Made by a program: the position numbers and the translations under genes. 49,219 nt of DNA, taken from assembly GCA_018818885.1 (NCBI GenBank), contig JAHIRB010000021.1, forward strand, positions 76,461-125,679, written 5' to 3'. Below are positions 6,214 to 48,315 of the stretch, one piece after another (positions within the stretch are counted from its first letter, which is position 1; every line of letters starts with the position of its first letter). The notes under the pieces are model-generated. The model saw nothing but the letters and a program-made list of their open reading frames with translations. It was not told the origin of the DNA and ran no database searches. Origin of the DNA: Patescibacteria group bacterium. GTDB taxonomy: Bacteria > Patescibacteriota > Patescibacteriia > Buchananbacterales > SURF-54.

Positions 6214-7098
6214 TTAAAAACTTTTAGCAATTTTCCAGACACCTTTTTCGCGAAAGGCAGGAATGGTTTGCCGTTTGGCTTTATTTAAAAGAATTGATAT
6301 AGATATATTTTTCTTTTTGGCATATTCTGAAAGTTTAACAATTTCTTCTCCTTCCAAATAAGCGATCCTTTTATGGAAAGACTCCACTAGCGCCAATGAT
6401 AAAACCTTGTCCATGATGGCGGTTTTTTTCTTATCGCTATTTCTATATTCTTTAAACGAATTATAATAAACTACCTTTTCTTTATCACGAATAATAATCG
6501 GCGGGAATCCAAGCTGTATCAATTGGTAATTAATAAGCACACGTCCGATTCTTCCATTGCCATCGCAAAATGGATGAATATGTTCAAATTCCAGATGGAA
6601 CTTTGCGATTTTCTCAAGAAAATATTGTGTATGCCGACTTGAATATTCCAAAAGCATATTATCAATCATGGCCTCGATATGTTTAGGCGCGGGCGCAATG
6701 TATGTTCCTACACGAACATGTTCGTTTTGCTTACGAAATCTGCCGGCAATTTTTTCATCTATATTCGAAATTAGCATGTTGTGCAACAACAAAATTAAGT
6801 TCATATCAATATTTTGTGTACTTATTTTTTCTTTTATATGCTCAAACACACGGGCCAGATTTCTTGCTTCAAAAACTTCTCGCACTGACACGTTGCGAGA
6901 AACTTCCATGTCTAAAAGAATCTTTTCCGTTTCTAAGACAGTTAAAGTTGAATTCTCAATTGCATTGGAATTGTAAACAGATTCCGGCAATTCTGACTCA
7001 AACACAATATCTAAAAGCGATTCTTTGTTTTTCTTTAAAGAATCATATTCTTTTTTCAACAAATCAATTTTTCCCTTAATATCTTTTGATGTGGCCAT
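6214..7098 (-). CDS. Fic family protein 1
   Basis: A 294-residue Fic-domain protein. The catalytic motif HPFCDGNGRIGR is at residues 175-186 and an N-terminal inhibitory motif SNAIEN at 44-49 ([S/T]xxxE[G/N]), so this is a class II, self-inhibited Fic enzyme. Such proteins transfer AMP to hydroxyl side chains of target proteins. The C-terminus (about 250-294, LSEYAKKKNISISILLNKAK...) looks like a winged-helix DNA-binding unit, as is common in these proteins. It leads an operon with the YgjP protease. Its promoter is overlapped by repeated TTCACG/CGTGAA half-sites, fitting autoregulation. Confidence 0.9.
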   Translation of the reverse strand: MATSKDIKGKIDLLKKEYDSLKKNKESLLDIVFESELPESVYNSNAIENSTLTVLETEKILLDMEVSRNVSVREVFEARNLARVFEHIKEKISTQNIDMNLILLLHNMLISNIDEKIAGRFRKQNEHVRVGTYIAPAPKHIEAMIDNMLLEYSSRHTQYFLEKIAKFHLEFEHIHPFCDGNGRIGRVLINYQLIQLGFPPIIIRDKEKVVYYNSFKEYRNSDKKKTAIMDKVLSLALVESFHKRIAYLEGEEIVKLSEYAKKKNISISILLNKAKRQTIPAFREKGVWKIAKSF

Positions 7099-7960: not shown

Positions 7961-7989
7961 TTGACAACAAAAATATTAAAATATAAGAT
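7961..7989 (+). promoter_or_regulatory. Promoter of the serine leader/serC operon
   Basis: TTGACA (7961-7966), 17-nt spacer, TAAGAT (7984-7989). The -10 box ends only 9 nt before the leader ATG, so the message is nearly leaderless. Confidence 0.8.
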
Positions 7990-7998
7990 ATATATAAT

Positions 7999-8097
7999 AT
8001 GCAAGACAAAATTTACCTTACACCAATTAAAAGCTGGGCTTCAGTTTGTTCATCTAGCTCATCATCAGCCTATGGTGGAAGGTTTTTTATTGGATAG
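7999..8097 (+). CDS. Serine-codon leader peptide of the serC operon
   Basis: A 32-codon frame from ATG 7999 to TAG 8095-8097. It has eight Ser codons, six of them consecutive (codons 18-23, TCA/TCT/AGC) after a Cys. It starts within a few nucleotides of the predicted transcription start and is followed by mutually exclusive hairpins and then by an operon ending in phosphoserine aminotransferase. The codon content matching the downstream pathway is the hallmark of leader peptides in transcription attenuation (as for trp, his and leu). Scarce seryl-tRNA would stall the ribosome at 8041-8067 and favour read-through. Confidence 0.82.
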   Translation: MQDKIYLTPIKSWASVCSSSSSSAYGGRFFIG

Positions 8098-8160
8098 ATA
8101 ATATACATTAGTTAATATAGAAAACAGCCTTCTACCAATTAGTTAGGCTGTTTTCTTATT
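8074..8160 (+). promoter_or_regulatory. Antiterminator/terminator switch of the serine attenuator
   Basis: Terminator: GAAAACAGCC (8120-8129) pairs perfectly with GGCTGTTTTC (8146-8155), followed by TTATT. Antiterminator: GGTGGAAGG (8074-8082, inside the leader frame) pairs with CCTTCTACC (8128-8136, one G-U), and the following T run can pair with AAAA at 8121-8124, which would sequester the left terminator arm. A ribosome at the leader stop covers 8074-8082 and leaves the terminator free. Confidence 0.8.
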
Positions 8161-8204
8161 GATATAACCCTAGGAGGAGTACATTTACAACCAAGGAGGC
8201 TGTT

Positions 8205-15210: not shown

Positions 15211-16779
15211 ATGCATACGGTCACAAAGAGACAAAAAGAAATCTACGATTATGTAAAAAACCATATAAAAGAATATGGCTATTCCCCTACCTTTGATGAG
15301 ATAGGAAAACATTTTAAGCTTTCTGCCTCATCTACAATACATCAGCATATAAAAGCTCTTGCAGATAAAGGGCTAATAACAAAAAATAATTATGGAGCAA
15401 GAAGCATTGAACTGGTAAAAAATGAAATTGCCGATAATAATCTTATTAATATCCCTCTTGCTGGCAAAATTACTGCCGGCCAGCCGATTGAAGCTGTAGA
15501 AGAAACAGGCACCACCATTCCAGTAGTCAAAAACGGCTTAAGCAGATTTGAAAAATACTTCGCTTTGCATGTTTCTGGAGACAGCATGGTTGATGAAGGC
15601 ATTTTCGACGGGGATATAGTTGTTATAAAAAAGCAATCAGTTGCAGAAAATGGACAAACAGTAGTCGCTATAATTGATGATAACGAAGCAACTCTGAAAA
15701 AACTCTATCGAGAAGATAATCGATTTCGCTTACAGCCAGCCAACCAGAAGCTACTTCCTATTTACAGGAAAGAGATTGAGGTTAGAGGAGTGGTAGTAAA
15801 AATAATCAGAGACATAGTTGATCAAACCCAAGATATAGGTTGTAGAACTCTTGATTTATTTGCCGGAGTAGGAGGCGTACGGCTTGGTTTTGAAAAAGCT
15901 GGATTTAAAACAGTATTCGCCAATGATTTTGAAAAGCAATGCAAGGAAACTTATGATCTTAATTTTAAGGATTCAAAACTTATAGTTGAAGATATAAGAA
16001 AAATTGGAATCGATGATCTGCCTGAATTCGATTTCTTACTAGCTGGATTTCCCTGCCAGGCCTTCTCGATTGCTGGTTACAGACATGGATTCAAAGATAA
16101 AAAAGACAGAGGCAATTTATTTTTTGACATAGCAAGGATTTTAGAAGCAAAAAAACCAGCGGGTTTCCTACTTGAGAATGTTAAAAATTTAAAGGGACAT
16201 GATCAAGGAAAAACTTTTGATATTATCTCAAAAACCCTCAAGGATTTTGGCTACCATATAAAATCAAAAGTCTTGAATAGTATGGAATATGGTAATGTTC
16301 CCCAAAACAGAGAAAGAATTTATATCGTAGGATTTAAAAATAAAAAATATTTCGACAACTTTAATTTTCCAAAACCTAAAAAACTTTCTGTTAAAGTAAC
16401 TGATTTACTAGAAAAAAATGTAAACGATAAATACTATTACAATGGAAAACCTTTGTATACGAGACTTAAAAATGACATAAAAGAAGAAGGGAAAGTTTAC
16501 CAGTGGCGCAGAAAATATGTTAGAGAAAATAAAAAAGGCGTCTGTCCGACGCTTACAGCAAATATGGGTATGGGTGGCCACAATGTGCCAATCATTAAGG
16601 ACAAGAAAGGTATAAGAAAATTAACACCACGTGAATGCGCGAGACTGCAGGGTTTTCCAAAAAATTATAAACACCCTGTTATGGCAGACTCTACTTTATA
16701 TAAACAGTTTGGTAACTCTGTAACAGTTCCAGTAGTAGAAGCGGTTGCAAAACAAATAAAAATTGCTATTTCGTTTTAA
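15211..16779 (+). CDS. LexA repressor fused to a cytosine-5 DNA methyltransferase
   Basis: One uninterrupted 522-residue frame. Residues 1-202 are a complete LexA: winged helix (TKRQKEIYDYV..., recognition helix about 40-53), cleavage site A89-G90 in ITAGQP, catalytic S125 in SGDSM and K163 in EATLKK. A linker of about ten residues leads to a complete C5 methyltransferase (212-522): motif I LDLFAGVGG, motif IV GFPCQAFS with C282, motif VI ENVKNL, motif VIII QNRERIYI, motif IX RKLTPRECARLQGFP and motif X FGNSVTVPV. It would methylate cytosine in a short site and bind an operator; RecA-stimulated self-cleavage would part the DNA-binding head from the methyltransferase. Its 3' end overlaps the convergent endonuclease gene by 14 bp. 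Confidence 0.93.
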   Translation: MHTVTKRQKEIYDYVKNHIKEYGYSPTFDEIGKHFKLSASSTIHQHIKALADKGLITKNNYGARSIELVKNEIADNNLINIPLAGKITAGQPIEAVEETGTTIPVVKNGLSRFEKYFALHVSGDSMVDEGIFDGDIVVIKKQSVAENGQTVVAIIDDNEATLKKLYREDNRFRLQPANQKLLPIYRKEIEVRGVVVKIIRDIVDQTQDIGCRTLDLFAGVGGVRLGFEKAGFKTVFANDFEKQCKETYDLNFKDSKLIVEDIRKIGIDDLPEFDFLLAGFPCQAFSIAGYRHGFKDKKDRGNLFFDIARILEAKKPAGFLLENVKNLKGHDQGKTFDIISKTLKDFGYHIKSKVLNSMEYGNVPQNRERIYIVGFKNKKYFDNFNFPKPKKLSVKVTDLLEKNVNDKYYYNGKPLYTRLKNDIKEEGKVYQWRRKYVRENKKGVCPTLTANMGMGGHNVPIIKDKKGIRKLTPRECARLQGFPKNYKHPVMADSTLYKQFGNSVTVPVVEAVAKQIKIAISF

Positions 16780-17844: not shown

Positions 17845-18029
17845 AGGTTTATATTAGCATTTTTTAAATCATTCAAAGAGTATTTCTCAATAAGCTTATT
17901 TTTATTCCATACATTCAACATTCTTCCATCCCATTCTAATAAATCAAAGGGTTCTGTTGTGGTTTTAAAATGCGCATAGATCTCATTGTATTGTCTTTGT
18001 AACTTTTTGTAATCCATAATTTTAGACAA
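17841..18029 (-). CDS. Small protein 1 of the DpnI-like operon, 62 residues
   Basis: A 62-residue protein overlapping the end of the DpnI-like gene by 8 bp and the next small gene by 4 bp (ATGA). It has a Lys/Gln/Tyr-rich helix (KKLQRQYNEIYAHF) and a strand-rich centre (EPFDLLEWDGRML). No family recognised. The S. pneumoniae DpnI cassette also has a second gene, dpnD, downstream of the endonuclease gene, but its product is larger, so equivalence is not claimed. Confidence 0.65.
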   Translation of the reverse strand: MSKIMDYKKLQRQYNEIYAHFKTTTEPFDLLEWDGRMLNVWNKNKLIEKYSLNDLKNANINL

Positions 18030-18798
18030 CTTGGTAATGACCGCGTTTAAAAAATTTAAGATAGCCCTTGTCTCTCAAAACTTGTAATTGTTGTCGTATT
18101 TTATCTTTAATGTGGTGGTTATTTGGATGTTTTTTACTTAATTCATCTTTAAACGCATATATTTCATCAAGTGAAAATTTTTTACTACCCAATTTTTCTA
18201 TACATACCATTACATCTAAAAGCCAGCCTTTCGCGTCTATTACTTTTTCTTCACGCAAAAAAAGTGTCCTTTCCCATTGAATGAGTACTTTGTTTTTTGG
18301 TTTGACAATCTTATCTTTTACAAAAAATATTTTACCAGTTTGCGGGATACTTTTGAGCAATATATTACAACCGACCCATCCAGCGCGCCGTGCGGTTTGT
18401 GACAAAGGTTTACGTTTCTCAATTATTTCTGGCACAAAAAAGTGTTTTGGGATAACAAAAAAATCTAGAACTTGATAATTATGTATATTATAATTAAGTA
18501 GAAAAAAATTTGGGTTGTGCCCACCCATTAATCTTTCCAGCATCGTGCGATATGCACCATCATTAATTTTTGCACCGATAGTTTCTTTTTTACTTTTTAA
18601 TTCATAGTCTTCTTTACAATTTGAACAAAAAAAATCAGCCACTGGCTTATTGTTTTCATATTTATCTATATCTAAATTGCCACAATTCGGACAAAATATC
18701 TGTTTATCAACCCAGTGTTCGGACATAACTCTGATCTTTTGCGACTGACTTTTATAATTTTTGGCTAGCCTTGTGTCAAAAAATAAATTCATATCCAC
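18022..18798 (-). CDS. DpnI-like methyl-directed restriction endonuclease
   Basis: A 258-residue protein that follows DpnI along its length: YKSQSQKIRVMSEHWV near the N-terminus, a CPNC/CSNC zinc site (C36, C39, C58, C61), catalytic D55, E66 and K68 in ADFFC...YELKSKK, INDGAYRTM, TARRAGWVGCNI, and a C-terminal winged helix ending in IRQQLQVLRDKGYLKF. DpnI cuts GATC only when the adenine is methylated. A host carrying it should lack Dam-type methylation and would destroy Dam-methylated incoming DNA, complementing the classical system next door. First gene of a three-gene coupled operon. Confidence 0.93.
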   Translation of the reverse strand: MDMNLFFDTRLAKNYKSQSQKIRVMSEHWVDKQIFCPNCGNLDIDKYENNKPVADFFCSNCKEDYELKSKKETIGAKINDGAYRTMLERLMGGHNPNFFLLNYNIHNYQVLDFFVIPKHFFVPEIIEKRKPLSQTARRAGWVGCNILLKSIPQTGKIFFVKDKIVKPKNKVLIQWERTLFLREEKVIDAKGWLLDVMVCIEKLGSKKFSLDEIYAFKDELSKKHPNNHHIKDKIRQQLQVLRDKGYLKFFKRGHYQVV

Positions 18799-21409: not shown

Positions 21410-22480
21410 TTAAATCAACATATACCCCGAAGCCGGACCCTTGCCTACTTGCTTGATCATTCCTAATTTTTTTAGTTTTTGCAGGTAAGACTGGGCGGTT
21501 CTTTTTGGGCAATGTAAAATATCTATAACATCCTGGACTGTAATTTTTCCAACCTGATCAAGAAAATCTAAAATCTGCATTTGATTTTTATCCAAATAAA
21601 CCTTGGCTTGAATTTTTTCATCAACTTTTTTCATCGACAAAGAGGCAATCTTATCTTTTACCTCATCAATTTCCTGCTTAAATCCTTTGACAAAATATTC
21701 CAGCCAAGAAGTAAAATCAGTTTGGCGCTCTTCGTAGTTTTTGCCAATGTTAATAGCCGCGTAATACTTTGGCCGATCCTGATTGTAATAGTCTTCCAAG
21801 GCAAAAAGCCGCCTGAAATCATACCCTCTCTCATACAAAATAAGGGTTGCCAGAGCGCGCGCTGTTCGGCCATTGCCATCGGTAAACGGATGAATGGCAG
21901 CCAGTTCTTGATGAACGATGCCGGCAACAATAATAGGATGAATTTCTTTTTTTGAGCTTTGCTTTATCCATTCCACCAAGTCTTTCATCAAACCAGCGAC
22001 TTTTTTTGCTGCTGGGCCGGTATAGACTGTTTCTTGCGATTTGCCAAACCGGCGGCTGACAACATAAATCGGCTCCCGGCGGTAATGCCCGGACTGTTCA
22101 TCATTTAAGGTATCGGCTGTGGCCAGCTGATGTATTTTTAAAACTACTTTTTCAGTTACTTGTTGTTTTTTTTCAACTACCTGCTCGATATACTTTAAAG
22201 CTTTTAAGTAATTCTCAACTTCAAAAATATCACGCGCCGGCGCATCAATTTTTTTGTTCGCCAGCAAGTCTTCAACCTGACGAGCGTTAAGCATGTTTCC
22301 CTCAATAGCGGTAGAACTGTGAGTCATGCGAATCATTGCCTGCCGGCGCAACCTTAACTCGTGCTTGGGAAGCAATTTAGCGCGGTTGATAACAGACTTG
22401 GCTTCGGCGATGGCAGTCAGCCAGTTTACAATCTTGTTGCTTATTTTATATTGGGGTGTAAACATACTTATATTATACAT
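21410..22480 (-). CDS. Fic family protein 2
   Basis: A 356-residue class II Fic protein. The inhibitory motif SSTAIEGN is near residue 56, the catalytic loop HPFTDGNGRTAR at 197-208, and a winged-helix domain at the C-terminus (about 300-350, MQILDFLDQVGKITVQDVIDIL...) matches the DNA-binding tail of this subgroup. Expected activity is AMP transfer to protein hydroxyls. Three copies of ATCGCGCA just upstream of the start look like an operator for the winged helix. It ends 33 bp before the SET gene and may be cotranscribed with it. Confidence 0.9.
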   Translation of the reverse strand: MYNISMFTPQYKISNKIVNWLTAIAEAKSVINRAKLLPKHELRLRRQAMIRMTHSSTAIEGNMLNARQVEDLLANKKIDAPARDIFEVENYLKALKYIEQVVEKKQQVTEKVVLKIHQLATADTLNDEQSGHYRREPIYVVSRRFGKSQETVYTGPAAKKVAGLMKDLVEWIKQSSKKEIHPIIVAGIVHQELAAIHPFTDGNGRTARALATLILYERGYDFRRLFALEDYYNQDRPKYYAAINIGKNYEERQTDFTSWLEYFVKGFKQEIDEVKDKIASLSMKKVDEKIQAKVYLDKNQMQILDFLDQVGKITVQDVIDILHCPKRTAQSYLQKLKKLGMIKQVGKGPASGYMLI

Positions 22481-23244: not shown

Positions 23245-24426
23245 CTATTTTGATTTAGCGCGTGCTGCGCGGAAAGCATCGTCAAAAATTTCATAATAAT
23301 CGGCATAAATATATTTTTGAGCATATTGCGCATCACCAAGAGGCTCAAGAATCTTTAAAGCCTTAAGACGTTCGATTACTCTATAAGCTCCGGGAGCGGT
23401 AAATTTGGTCCATCCCATTATTTCGCCCACTCCGATGATAGGCTGGCTGAACAACTTACGCACAATCTCCAGAGTCGAAGCGGCTGATTTTTTACCAAGC
23501 TTTTGCATTTTAGCGAAATCCCGGTCGCGCAAAGCTGTTATTTGCGTGCAGGTTTCAATACCAGAATCTGCAATTTCACAAACACCTTCAAGAAAAAAAT
23601 CCAGCCAACCATCAACATCCGCCTCTTCGTCGTGATAATTCTGTAATTTTTGATAATATACTTTTTGGTATTTTTTGAAATAACTAGAAAGGTAAAGTAC
23701 GGGTAATTCCAAAAGTTTTTTATGATAAATAAACATGGTTATGAGCATTCGCCCGGTGCGTCCGTTACCATCGGTAAAAGGATGGATAGTTTCAAATTGC
23801 GCGTGTATAAGGCCTGCCTTTATTAAAGAAGGGTAATTATCCCCGGCATGGATAAATTTTTCCAAATCAACCAAAGATTTCTGCATATCATCTACTGCAG
23901 GCGGAACAAAAGATGCATCCGTCGGGGTTTTACCGCCGATCCAATTTTGTGAATGTCTAAATTCCCCAGGACAAGAATGCTGTGTGCATCTTGCACCAGT
24001 CATTAGTTTTTCATGAAGCTCTCTTATAAACCTTAAAGAAATAGGAAACTCTTTGGTTCTTTCTATACCATAATTAGCAGCTTTGATATAATGTTCGATG
24101 TCATCTACATCCACATTTTTACGATCCTTCTTTTCCGTAACCGGAGCAGCGACAGCATCCTGTAAAGTGGCTTTGGTTCCTTCTATCTGGCTTGAGTAGG
24201 TGGCATCTTTTACGACAAACATCGAAATAAAAAAATCTTTGTCCGGCAAAAGACGGGTGATGCCGTCGAGTTTTCCCACCAAGCGGATGGCTTCTTCGTG
24301 TTTTTTGTTTAATTTTAGGCTGATTGGAACCCCCCCCAGCGGTGGGAAGCCAAAAGGCGTAAAAGCCTTAAAACCTTCTTTTTGCTGAATATATCGGCCG
24401 ATTTTAGGTTTGTTTATATTGCTCAT
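23245..24426 (-). CDS. Fic family protein 3
   Basis: A 393-residue class II Fic protein of the Fic_N/Fic/winged-helix type. The inhibitory motif SSQIEG is at 78-83, the catalytic loop HPFTDGNGRTGR at 215-226, and a winged-helix segment at about 305-365 (ALEIVRKLF-like SQPIIGVGEIMGW...AYRVIERL). PLGGVPISLKLN near the N-terminus is typical of the Fic/DOC N domain. Expected activity is AMPylation. The promoter is surrounded by GATATAAAC half-sites, again fitting autoregulation. It is on the same strand as, and about 100 bp upstream of, the two-helix membrane gene. Confidence 0.92.
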   Translation of the reverse strand: MSNINKPKIGRYIQQKEGFKAFTPFGFPPLGGVPISLKLNKKHEEAIRLVGKLDGITRLLPDKDFFISMFVVKDATYSSQIEGTKATLQDAVAAPVTEKKDRKNVDVDDIEHYIKAANYGIERTKEFPISLRFIRELHEKLMTGARCTQHSCPGEFRHSQNWIGGKTPTDASFVPPAVDDMQKSLVDLEKFIHAGDNYPSLIKAGLIHAQFETIHPFTDGNGRTGRMLITMFIYHKKLLELPVLYLSSYFKKYQKVYYQKLQNYHDEEADVDGWLDFFLEGVCEIADSGIETCTQITALRDRDFAKMQKLGKKSAASTLEIVRKLFSQPIIGVGEIMGWTKFTAPGAYRVIERLKALKILEPLGDAQYAQKYIYADYYEIFDDAFRAARAKSK

Positions 24427-45998: not shown

Positions 45999-46943
45999 TT
46001 ACAATCCCATTATTTTTCTTCTCGCATATGCTGCCAAATGTGCATTCATCGCGAACGACGGGAACGGTTCCGTATCGATATTGACATAGAAGGTTCTAAG
46101 GGTCACTTCAACATCCACTCTGTGGGATTCTTCGAGCGGTGTTAGAGGCCTCCGTAGTTCATTTTGAATTAATTCCAGTAGTGATAGAGCAAACTTCACC
46201 GGGATGGGATTTGTTTCACAGAACAGAATATTGAACAGAGGTAATAGGATGTAGTGTAACTTTCTGGCTGTTTTCATGTCGCTGTTTTTGATCAGTTCGA
46301 CGAGGTACGCAATCGCCTCTGGTACAACATTCGCTGCTACACTGACAACACCTTTGGCGCCGAGTGCCATCATAGGTAAGATCAGTTTGTCATCACCAGA
46401 AACAACAGTGATATCGCACATGCTCAATATGGCTTCTGCCTGGTCCACACTTCCGCTGGCTTCCTTTATGGCAACGATGTTATCGATTTTGGAGAGTTTT
46501 GCCACAGTGTCAGGAAGCATGTTTACGCCGGTGCGGCTCGGAACATTGTACAACATTATTGGCAAGTCAACGGATGCTGCAATTTTCTCGTAGTGAAGTC
46601 GAAGGCCATTTTGAGTGGGCTTGTTGTAATACGGTGTTATCATAAGCGCACCATCTGCTCCGGCTTTTTTTGCCAGTTTTGTGAGTTTTATAGCTTCTGA
46701 CGTGCTGTTGGAGCCTGTACCGGCAACAACTTTTACCCGTCCGGCAACCACCTCGACTACGCGTTCGATGATTCGAATCTGTTCATCGTGGGTTAAGGTT
46801 GCAGCCTCCCCAGTACAACCACATGGGCAGATTACATCAGTGCCATTTTTGAGTTGGTGTTCTACCAAACCGGGAATTCTTTCTTCGTCGACTTCACCGT
46901 TCTTAAATGGTGTTGCCAGTGCTACCATTGAGCCAGTAAACAT
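45999..46943 (-). CDS. dapA: 4-hydroxy-tetrahydrodipicolinate synthase
   Basis: A 314-residue class I aldolase that condenses pyruvate with aspartate semialdehyde, the first step of the diaminopimelate/lysine branch. The Schiff-base lysine is K160 in VAIKEASG, with Y132 in LYNVPSRTG and GTGSN (75-79). The usual GTTGE is CGCTGE (41-46), so one Thr of the proton relay is Cys. Slightly long (usual 290-300) because of a C-terminal tail. The start follows GGGAGG by 6 nt. Expression is probably controlled by a lysine-codon leader and terminator about 150-260 bp upstream. Confidence 0.93.
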   Translation of the reverse strand: MFTGSMVALATPFKNGEVDEERIPGLVEHQLKNGTDVICPCGCTGEAATLTHDEQIRIIERVVEVVAGRVKVVAGTGSNSTSEAIKLTKLAKKAGADGALMITPYYNKPTQNGLRLHYEKIAASVDLPIMLYNVPSRTGVNMLPDTVAKLSKIDNIVAIKEASGSVDQAEAILSMCDITVVSGDDKLILPMMALGAKGVVSVAANVVPEAIAYLVELIKNSDMKTARKLHYILLPLFNILFCETNPIPVKFALSLLELIQNELRRPLTPLEESHRVDVEVTLRTFYVNIDTEPFPSFAMNAHLAAYARRKIMGL

Positions 46944-47090: not shown

Positions 47091-47159
47091 AAAAAAACCT
47101 GCCGTCTGGGCAGATTTGTTGTTGCTTTTAAACTTTAGAAAAAAGAAACCAACCCAGAC
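47091..47159 (-). promoter_or_regulatory. Antiterminator/terminator switch of the dapA attenuator
   Basis: Minus strand: terminator CTGCC/GGCAG (47113-47109 / 47103-47099) with T7 after it (47097-47091). GTCTGGG at 47159-47153, overlapping the leader stop codon, is complementary to CCCAGAC at 47110-47104 in the terminator and can compete with it. GCTTTAAACTT in the leader can also pair with AAGTTTAAAAGC at about 47125-47136. Confidence 0.7.
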
Positions 47160-47206
47160 TAAGCGGGAGATTTCTTATTCTTTAAGTTTAAAGCAGTGTA
47201 TTGCAT
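47159..47206 (-). CDS. Lysine-codon leader peptide of dapA
   Basis: A 15-residue frame MQYTALNLKNKKSPA, ATG at 47206 and TAG at 47161-47159. Three of codons 9-12 are Lys. The ATG is 7 nt from the -10 box, so the message is leaderless, as at the serine leader. Lys codons in front of a lysine-pathway gene, followed by a conditional terminator, fit transcription attenuation. The short frame alone would not be convincing without those flanks. Confidence 0.68.
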   Translation of the reverse strand: MQYTALNLKNKKSPA

Positions 47207-47212
47207 ATCTAT

Positions 47213-47241
47213 AATTTATCAAATCAGAATAAGTTTGTCAA
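47213..47241 (-). promoter_or_regulatory. Promoter of the dapA leader
   Basis: On the minus strand TTGACA (47241-47236), 17-nt spacer, TAAATT (47218-47213). Further TTGACT-type candidates lie between the terminator and dapA. Confidence 0.7.
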
Positions 47242-47306: not shown

Positions 47307-48269
47307 TTAGTGTCGATCACGCATTGCGTGGAAGGATTCATCGTTATGACGAACCTTTATAGCTTGGGCGAAAAGTTGTACAACAGAAACCACTTCGATT
47401 TTCCCCCTTTCTTTTTGTGATGGTAGCGGTATTGTGTCTGTTATATAGAGTTTCTGCAACGGAGAGTCTTGAATCAAATCAGGACCATTTTTGGTAAGGA
47501 AACCGTGGGTGGTTGCGGCACTGACCTCGATTGCTCCGTTTCGAAGCAATACATCGACACCTTCAATTAAGGTACTACCAGACAGGGCTTCATCGTCAAA
47601 GATGAATGCTTTTTTATCTCGGACATTGCCCATGATCTCGTCACCCATTTCAGCGGTTTCAGTATCGTCTTTTCTGTCTTTGTTGAGAATTGCCCATGGG
47701 ATACCCATGCCTTTTGTATGTTTTTTGACATATTTGGCTGCGCCGACGTCTGGTGCTACAAAAACGAAACCGTCCTTTTCTTCTCCGACAATATGTTCGG
47801 CCAAAATGCGTGTTGCGGTTAACGCGTCCACTTGTAGATTTTTGTGAGCGACCTCGATAGTGTTGCTATGAGGGTCCATGGTGAGAACTCTGTCAGCACC
47901 AGCCTCTCTCATAAAGGCTTTAATCAATCCGGCCATTTCACTGATTCGACGTCCTTCCTTTTTGTCGGAACGTGCATAAGGAAAGTACGGTACAACAATT
48001 GTAACGCGATTAGCATTGCTGGCATATTTAGCAGCGTCAATCATTGCCAGCATTTCCAGTATGGCGTTTCCGAGATTATCGCTGTGTTGCATAAATATGT
48101 AAGCATCACTGCCAGAGATATTTTCCATAATCTCGGGTTGGACATTTTGATTACTGAAAGTAACCACTTGAGTTTTGACAAGTGAGGTTTCAAGTTCCTT
48201 TGCAACCAGAGCTGCGAAATTTGTTGCCGACTGACACGATATTAATCTTAATTCACCATAACGAGACAT
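47307..48269 (-). CDS. prs: Ribose-phosphate pyrophosphokinase, diverged
   Basis: A 320-residue PRPP synthetase-like protein. VVPYFPYARSDKKEGR (about 88-103), ADRVLTMDPHSNTIE (about 122-136) and VFVAPDVGAAKYVKKH match the enzyme's ATP and ribose-5-phosphate sites. The PRPP-binding loop FIFDDEALSGSTLIEG replaces the usual DDMIDTGGT, and the N-terminal DNLGNAILEML block is altered too, so it is a divergent member. The start chosen is ATG 48269, 7 nt after GGGAGGAG, not the upstream ATG 48302. It supplies PRPP for nucleotides and some amino acids. Confidence 0.85.
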   Translation of the reverse strand: MSRYGELRLISCQSATNFAALVAKELETSLVKTQVVTFSNQNVQPEIMENISGSDAYIFMQHSDNLGNAILEMLAMIDAAKYASNANRVTIVVPYFPYARSDKKEGRRISEMAGLIKAFMREAGADRVLTMDPHSNTIEVAHKNLQVDALTATRILAEHIVGEEKDGFVFVAPDVGAAKYVKKHTKGMGIPWAILNKDRKDDTETAEMGDEIMGNVRDKKAFIFDDEALSGSTLIEGVDVLLRNGAIEVSAATTHGFLTKNGPDLIQDSPLQKLYITDTIPLPSQKERGKIEVVSVVQLFAQAIKVRHNDESFHAMRDRH

Positions 48270-48273
48270 CGTT

Positions 48274-48315
48274 CTATCTCCTCCCTTTTTGTACAAGTAC
48301 AACTTTTCCCTCCAT
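48274..48315 (-). other. Possible 13-codon upstream frame of prs
   Basis: ATG at 48315 to TAG at 48276-48274, ending inside the prs ribosome site 5 nt before the prs ATG. A promoter-like TTTACA, 17 nt, TAAGAT lies near 48350-48380. Translation of this frame is unproven; it could couple to prs. Confidence 0.3.

Follow-up and report, generated by a model that had tools for sequence, protein, structure and literature searches.

A candidate lysine-codon attenuator ahead of dapA in a patescibacterial genome

Lysine genes are textbook targets of the L-box riboswitch or of the T-box, and a dapA gene preceded by what looks like a short peptide-coding leader raises the question of how its expression is controlled. 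The gene in question lies in a stretch of 49,219 nucleotides (the window) from a bacterium of the Patescibacteria group, for which the first-pass annotation had proposed an attenuator with lysine codons. On the basis of the sequence and of folding models, we consider it highly probable (about 0.88) that dapA expression is tied to charged tRNA-Lys by ribosome-mediated transcription attenuation, with a peptide ORF that is probably leaderless. The sequence features by which attenuators are recognized are present, namely clustered lysine codons (three in four codons), a terminator, an antiterminator exclusive with it, a switch that depends in silico on the position of the ribosome, and a pathway gene, dapA. 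To the anatomy and the modelled switch are added conservation in a sister genus, sister leaders whose codons match their genes and the lack of any L-box match, and the earlier proposal is supported accordingly.

Anatomy of the dapA leader

The features of the locus are collected in Table 1. The start of dapA has a good Shine-Dalgarno sequence, and by eye the motifs YNVPSRTG and IKEASG of this enzyme family (DHDPS) are kept in the protein. The upstream gene, prs, has a terminator hairpin of its own at about 47283-47249, just upstream of the leader -35 element, and because of this the leader and dapA look like an independent transcription unit. The generic scans detected both the leader promoter, which scores 10/12, and the terminator. 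The element spans approximately 115 nt, and some 150 nt of leader separate the terminator from dapA. It had been claimed that a -10 box stands at the ATG; TAAATT ends 6 nt upstream of it, and the predicted transcript start therefore falls on the ATG or a few nt away. From this position of the promoter we infer that the ORF is leaderless or nearly so. A weak promoter-like sequence, TTGACT-17-TAAGGT, is seen on the minus strand between the attenuator and dapA (window 47052-47024); it failed to reach the cut-off of the promoter scan and could provide a bypass of the attenuator.

Table 1. Positions of the dapA leader, its neighbouring genes and the sister leaders; positions are those of the window unless a handle is given.
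Feature	Position	Strand	Evidence or remark
-35 element TTGACA	47236..47241	(-)	sequence and generic promoter scan; identical hexamer heads sister-genus leader
-10 element TAAATT	47213..47218	(-)	17-bp spacer from -35; 6 nt before ATG
Leader peptide ORF MQYTALNLKNKKSPA, 15 codons	47159..47206	(-)	ATG at 47206; stop TAG 47161-47159
Putative regulatory codons AAG-AAT-AAG-AAA (Lys9, Asn10, Lys11, Lys12)	47171..47182	(-)	sequence
Leader hairpin, peptide-coding region with post-stop region (protector / 1:2 stem)	47124..47194	(-)	folding
Antiterminator 5' arm, including GTCTGGG 47159-47153	47147..47167	(-)	duplex -21.2 kcal/mol
Antiterminator 3' arm	47098..47116	(-)	overlaps terminator 5' arm, loop and part of 3' arm
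Intrinsic terminator AAATCTGCC-CAGAC-GGCAGGTTT	47091..47117	(-)	stem-loop 47117-47095; 7-base U-run 47097-47091
dapA, 4-hydroxy-tetrahydrodipicolinate synthase	45999..46943	(-)	TIGR00674, 353.6 bits against a cut-off of 206; PF00701; start at 46943
prs, ribose-phosphate pyrophosphokinase family (upstream gene)	47307..48302	(-)	domain match
Ser leader MQDKIYLTPIKSWASVCSSSSSSAYGGRFFIG	7962-8165	(+)	TTGACA-17-TAAGAT; arm GGTGGAAGG pairs with terminator CCTTCTACC
Second Ser leader MQQKKYLSPKLSWNTVCSSSSSSSACGERFTFA	L128 3320-3530	(+)	ahead of uncharacterised 133-aa ORF
Cys leader MNSNKCQQNTCNCCCNCCCLPHFSIC	L118 4700-4557	(-)	before SbnI/SerK-like kinase and cysteine synthase
Pro leader MLYRSPQPTPPSNLDLWSVGICI	L130 14971-14856	(-)	ahead of proB and a proC-proA fusion
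Four leaders within about 3.3 kb (Ile-rich, Val/Leu/Ile-rich, Leu, aromatic)	L142 14354-11000	(-)	scan

The 15-residue peptide with the run LKNKK that had been described ahead of dapA was found again, with lysines at positions 9, 11 and 12. Its TAG stop codon shares a G with GTCTGGG, as had been stated, and the complementary arm extends beyond that motif; approximately 17 pairs join the 5' arm to the 5' stem, the loop and part of the 3' stem of the terminator. The complementary CCCAGAC, said to be contained in the terminator, was located there at 47110-47104; the terminator stem has nine pairs.

Both the L-box and the T-box are usual means of RNA control of lysine genes elsewhere (for the L-box, see PMC1262725), and the annotation had seen no L-box here. 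Covariance searches agree with it: the whole window gave no Rfam match at gathering score, and neither the L-box nor the T-box was listed up to an E-value of 10 in a permissive search of the 431-base region with the leader. The element is also short and is accounted for by the ORF. The chance that a ligand-binding riboswitch or a T-box controls this gene is accordingly taken to be negligible. The best sub-threshold match on the leader strand was to Phe_leader (27.2 bits against a gathering score of 55; E 0.017), which is itself an amino-acid attenuator.

A predicted switch that depends on the position of the ribosome

In the mechanism that we propose, transcription would begin at or beside the leader ATG, and a ribosome would translate the message immediately, without a Shine-Dalgarno sequence. 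With ample Lys-tRNA, the ribosome would reach the stop codon and cover the 5' antiterminator arm around 47159-47153, whereupon the terminator (47117-47091) would form and RNA polymerase would halt before dapA. With scarce Lys-tRNA, the ribosome would stall at Lys9, Lys11 or Lys12 and leave that arm free to pair with the 5' arm and loop of the terminator, and the polymerase would continue into dapA.

Folding models behave in this way. The ribosome was modelled as a footprint that blocks pairing by all RNA as far as its front edge, and the probability of the terminator was 0.00 when the A site was on Lys9 and 1.00 when it was on the stop codon. The competing hairpins that had been claimed for this leader are thus found as a terminator and an antiterminator that are mutually exclusive in the folding model. 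In a model that lets the RNA behind the ribosome pair, the result at Lys9 is unchanged and the effect is weaker at Lys11 and Lys12 (0.24). Without a ribosome, the terminator prevails in the window leader (probability 1.00) and the antiterminator in the leader of the sister genus (terminator probability 0.00); the default state is not conserved, since the ribosome-free leaders of the two genomes (G000, that of the window, and G001) fold to opposite states.

It could be argued that the hairpin ends transcription prematurely and constitutively, or closes the prs transcript, and that the small ORF is accidental. Chance ORFs upstream of terminator hairpins are indeed common (hundreds of enriched ORFs lie near terminators), and where a genome is AT-rich a lysine cluster is no rarity; by itself, the cluster is only moderately unusual (window p approximately 0.003 before any correction), and it carries weight because it is conserved in the sister genus. 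Several results nevertheless make such an explanation very improbable. The prs terminator precedes the promoter of the leader. The strength of the antiterminator duplex was matched by none of 300 shuffles, and shuffling the stretch between the ribosome and the terminator gave the value seen for a stall at Lys9 in 0.3% of cases (a fraction of about 0.003), such that the antiterminator strength and the stall/stop switch beat approximately 99.7% of shuffles. The folding energy of the leader was better than that of all 200 dinucleotide shuffles (z -4.35). Finally, the peptide length, the lysine positions, the promoter and both arms are kept in another genus despite much regional divergence.

Conservation of the leader and the lysine pathway

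A dapA-like match was obtained in nine of 93 relatives. Within the family a single other genome (G001) was compared; it belongs to a different genus, and its DapA is 64% identical to that of the window. Its leader comprises TTGACA, an ATG directly after the -10 region, 15 codons (MKYFLLSNKDKKPAT), TAA, the arm GTCCAGGCGGATT and the terminator AATCTGCCCGGACGGCAGG. The lysine codons, the conservation of which in relatives had been at issue, occupy the same three positions (9, 11 and 12) in both peptides. A single base (A to G) separates the two terminator cores, and its partner in the arm has changed from T to C, which gives one compensatory pair; one A-C mismatch is present in the antiterminator duplex of the sister genus. 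The overlap of arm and stop codon is not conserved, in that the arm of the sister leader begins just after the TAA. The switch is nonetheless retained there, with a terminator probability of 0.01 when stalled against 1.00 at the stop codon (shuffle fraction 0.007), and the antiterminator duplex is equalled by 1.3% of shuffles.

These comparisons also bear on what the leader senses. Any stall near codons 8-12 leaves the arm free in the folding model, and the peptide has asparagine at positions 7 and 10 in addition to its lysines; the leader might thus respond to slow translation in general, or to asparagine or another residue, rather than to lysine specifically. Only the lysines are kept by position in the sister genus, whereas the asparagines move, and the sister leaders described below fit the amino acid of their own gene. 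We therefore regard a general or asparagine-directed response as unlikely, and lysine as the probable signal.

Other dapA-like loci were inspected in the order and the class, and none had a convincing lysine leader; that of G007, examined by eye, has a promoter approximately 100 nt upstream of the gene and neither a leader ORF nor a terminator. The lysine leader is so far limited, on this evidence, to one family and two genera. The genome of the window contains dapB, ahead of which no lysine leader was seen. A Pfam search in which positive controls were detected found no asd-type dehydrogenase C-domain, DAP epimerase or DAP decarboxylase C-domain in either genome of the family, with the qualification that the sister genome is only 79% complete. 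The lysine pathway of both organisms looks incomplete, or else built on unrecognised enzymes, and because it looks incomplete the advantage of lysine control is not obvious. Genomes across the class are small (0.6-1.5 Mb), with few amino-acid pathways. The 16S rRNA match in the sister genome spans approximately 1.9 kb, which suggests an insertion. Taken together, these traits suggest a lineage of the Patescibacteria/CPR.

Sister leaders and known attenuators

The first-pass annotation had likened the dapA leader to a serine leader, and the likeness holds: the same design, with a switch, is found at window 7962-8165, ahead of an uncharacterised 163-aa ORF that is followed by serC. Nearly all of the genome (51 contigs, about 1.35-1.36 Mb, taken in stretches) was screened with criteria blind to amino acids, that is, promoter, short ORF, terminator and stall/stop switch only. 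Six switch-like elements were returned, compared with none in either of two Markov-shuffled copies, one in a reversed copy and none in 0.5 Mb from other bacteria. The six are the lysine leader, MNSNKCQQNTCNCCCNCCCLPHFSIC, MIKITSTIIIEIIISQPLGGSLLRV, MNKVLSNNLVITISLVVLILVVLI, MNIMQNNWYFGFYFFTDPEARVS and an element at L104 +14955; the last has no trustworthy amino-acid bias and is probably a false positive. Further scans added two serine leaders (window +7999; L128 +3357), a proline leader (L130 -14971) and a leucine leader (L142 -13130). A leucine-looking peptide at L166 +7772 (MNYFLLLLLFLLLLFLLRDGL...) was set aside, because folding of 220 nt gave no evident terminator and there is no gene close downstream.

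The leucine leader, ALLLLLLPFGGRFTYV, precedes a 2-isopropylmalate-synthase-like (leuA-like) gene that falls below strict family cut-offs, and the aromatic leader (NWYFGFYFF) precedes small uncharacterised ORFs; the Ile, Val/Leu and aromatic leaders all stand before genes of no assigned role. The sister genome has a serine leader, apparently at the same place as that of L128, which precedes a serA-like gene (below the family cut-off), and a KH-domain-like ORF lies further downstream of both. No serA-like gene was found in the genome of the window, and the L128 leader is an orphan. The sister genome likewise retains the proline leader (L198 +141), beside a tRNA, and no proB was found there; class-wide searches for serA and proB gave matches. 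Another family of the order has a proB-like gene headed by a leader with a Pro-Pro pair, and cysteine leaders stand before cysK in two further families of the class (L254, and the minus strand of L257, the L257 peptide being read by eye). The sister genome also has tandem leaders on the minus strand of L219 (1480 and 1107), with CCVCC and STTTTC peptides and no biosynthetic gene near; a small Cys-rich ORF follows the first, and a 12-codon ORF the second.

A stall/stop computation on 13 leaders gave a fitting switch for nearly all of them. The weakest switches are those of the proline leader in the sister genome (0.08 against 0.94) and the cysteine leader in G195 (0.27 against 0.99), and those of the serine leaders are clear only when RNA behind the ribosome is barred from pairing across it. 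That the codons of these leaders fit the pathway of the next gene (Ser with serC, Cys with serK-cysK, Pro with proB-proCA, Leu with the leuA-like gene and, in the sister genome, Ser with the serA-like gene) supports the lysine reading of the dapA leader. It is conceivable, and we put it forward tentatively, that the lineage runs its few amino-acid genes mainly by means of a family of leaderless attenuators of one plan (Lys, Ser, Cys, Pro, Leu, Ile, Val/Leu and aromatic), several of which share the GGTGGAAGG arm. The orphan leaders, together with a dapA in an incomplete lysine pathway, raise the possibility that such leaders control partial pathways that a host or partner cell supplies.

The mechanism proposed for dapA is of a classical type. 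Attenuators of the trp, his, thr and phe type (Trp_leader, His_leader, Thr_leader and Phe_leader in Rfam) have, as here, a short ORF with regulatory codons, a terminator, an exclusive antiterminator and a biosynthetic gene. The dapA leader differs from them in its lysine codons, its predicted leaderless ORF, its antiterminator arm at the stop codon and its lineage, and no Rfam family was reached. Canestrari et al. (2020) are said to have dealt with polycysteine leaderless ORFs of mycobacteria. Such ORFs place leaderless runs of cysteine before cysteine genes, as does the cysteine leader in the genome of the window. Early candidates of this kind are to be found in PMC1262725, where no conserved terminator hairpin is given for them, whereas each leader here has a terminator and an antiterminator. 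That survey of Actinobacteria detected Trp, Cys and Leu elements and named L-box riboswitches for lysine elsewhere and attenuators for other amino acids. L-boxes and lysine T-boxes exert RNA-level control of lysine genes in other bacteria, often by premature termination; they sense by RNA, without a translated peptide, and the dapA leader matches neither.

In its predicted start site the dapA leader resembles leuL, trpL, ilvL, thrL and metL of Streptomyces lividans (PMC8079986), in which the transcript starts at the leader ATG, the short peptide is enriched in the end product and the hairpins occur with or without a U-run terminator; in the present case the start is predicted, and the host lineage is unrelated. 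The leaderless attenuators of Streptomyces serve Leu, Trp, Ile, Thr and Met, together with an Ala leader, and lysine, serine, proline and cysteine do not figure among the assignments of the eight leaders listed (PMC8079986). Leader peptides were stated to be known only from Proteobacteria and Actinobacteria before Firmicutes were added, in a genome-wide attenuator study in the main text of which lysine is absent (PMC2965389). In Sinorhizobium, an ORF that carries six Thr and three Lys codons and precedes aspartate dehydrogenase has been suggested to be a leader (PMC10117765). In the literature covered, which lies largely outside the subscription journals, there is no lysine attenuator ahead of a lysine gene and no attenuator in candidate phyla; lysine codons in a leader of this type thus appear to be undescribed. 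Lysine attenuators of the peptide type, and those for serine and proline, would fill gaps among the amino acids sensed in this way, and would suggest that a small-genome lineage couples transcription to translation in the control of messages predicted to be leaderless. The leaders would also offer ready-made reporters of amino-acid status in bacteria that are hard to grow.

Some other genes of the window may be mentioned. A 522-aa ORF on the plus strand (15211-16779) fuses a LexA DNA-binding domain, an S24 peptidase domain and a C-5 cytosine methyltransferase, and a DpnI-like gene lies near it (18022-18798). Three Fic-domain genes are present on the minus strand (6214-7098, 21410-22480 and 23245-24426).
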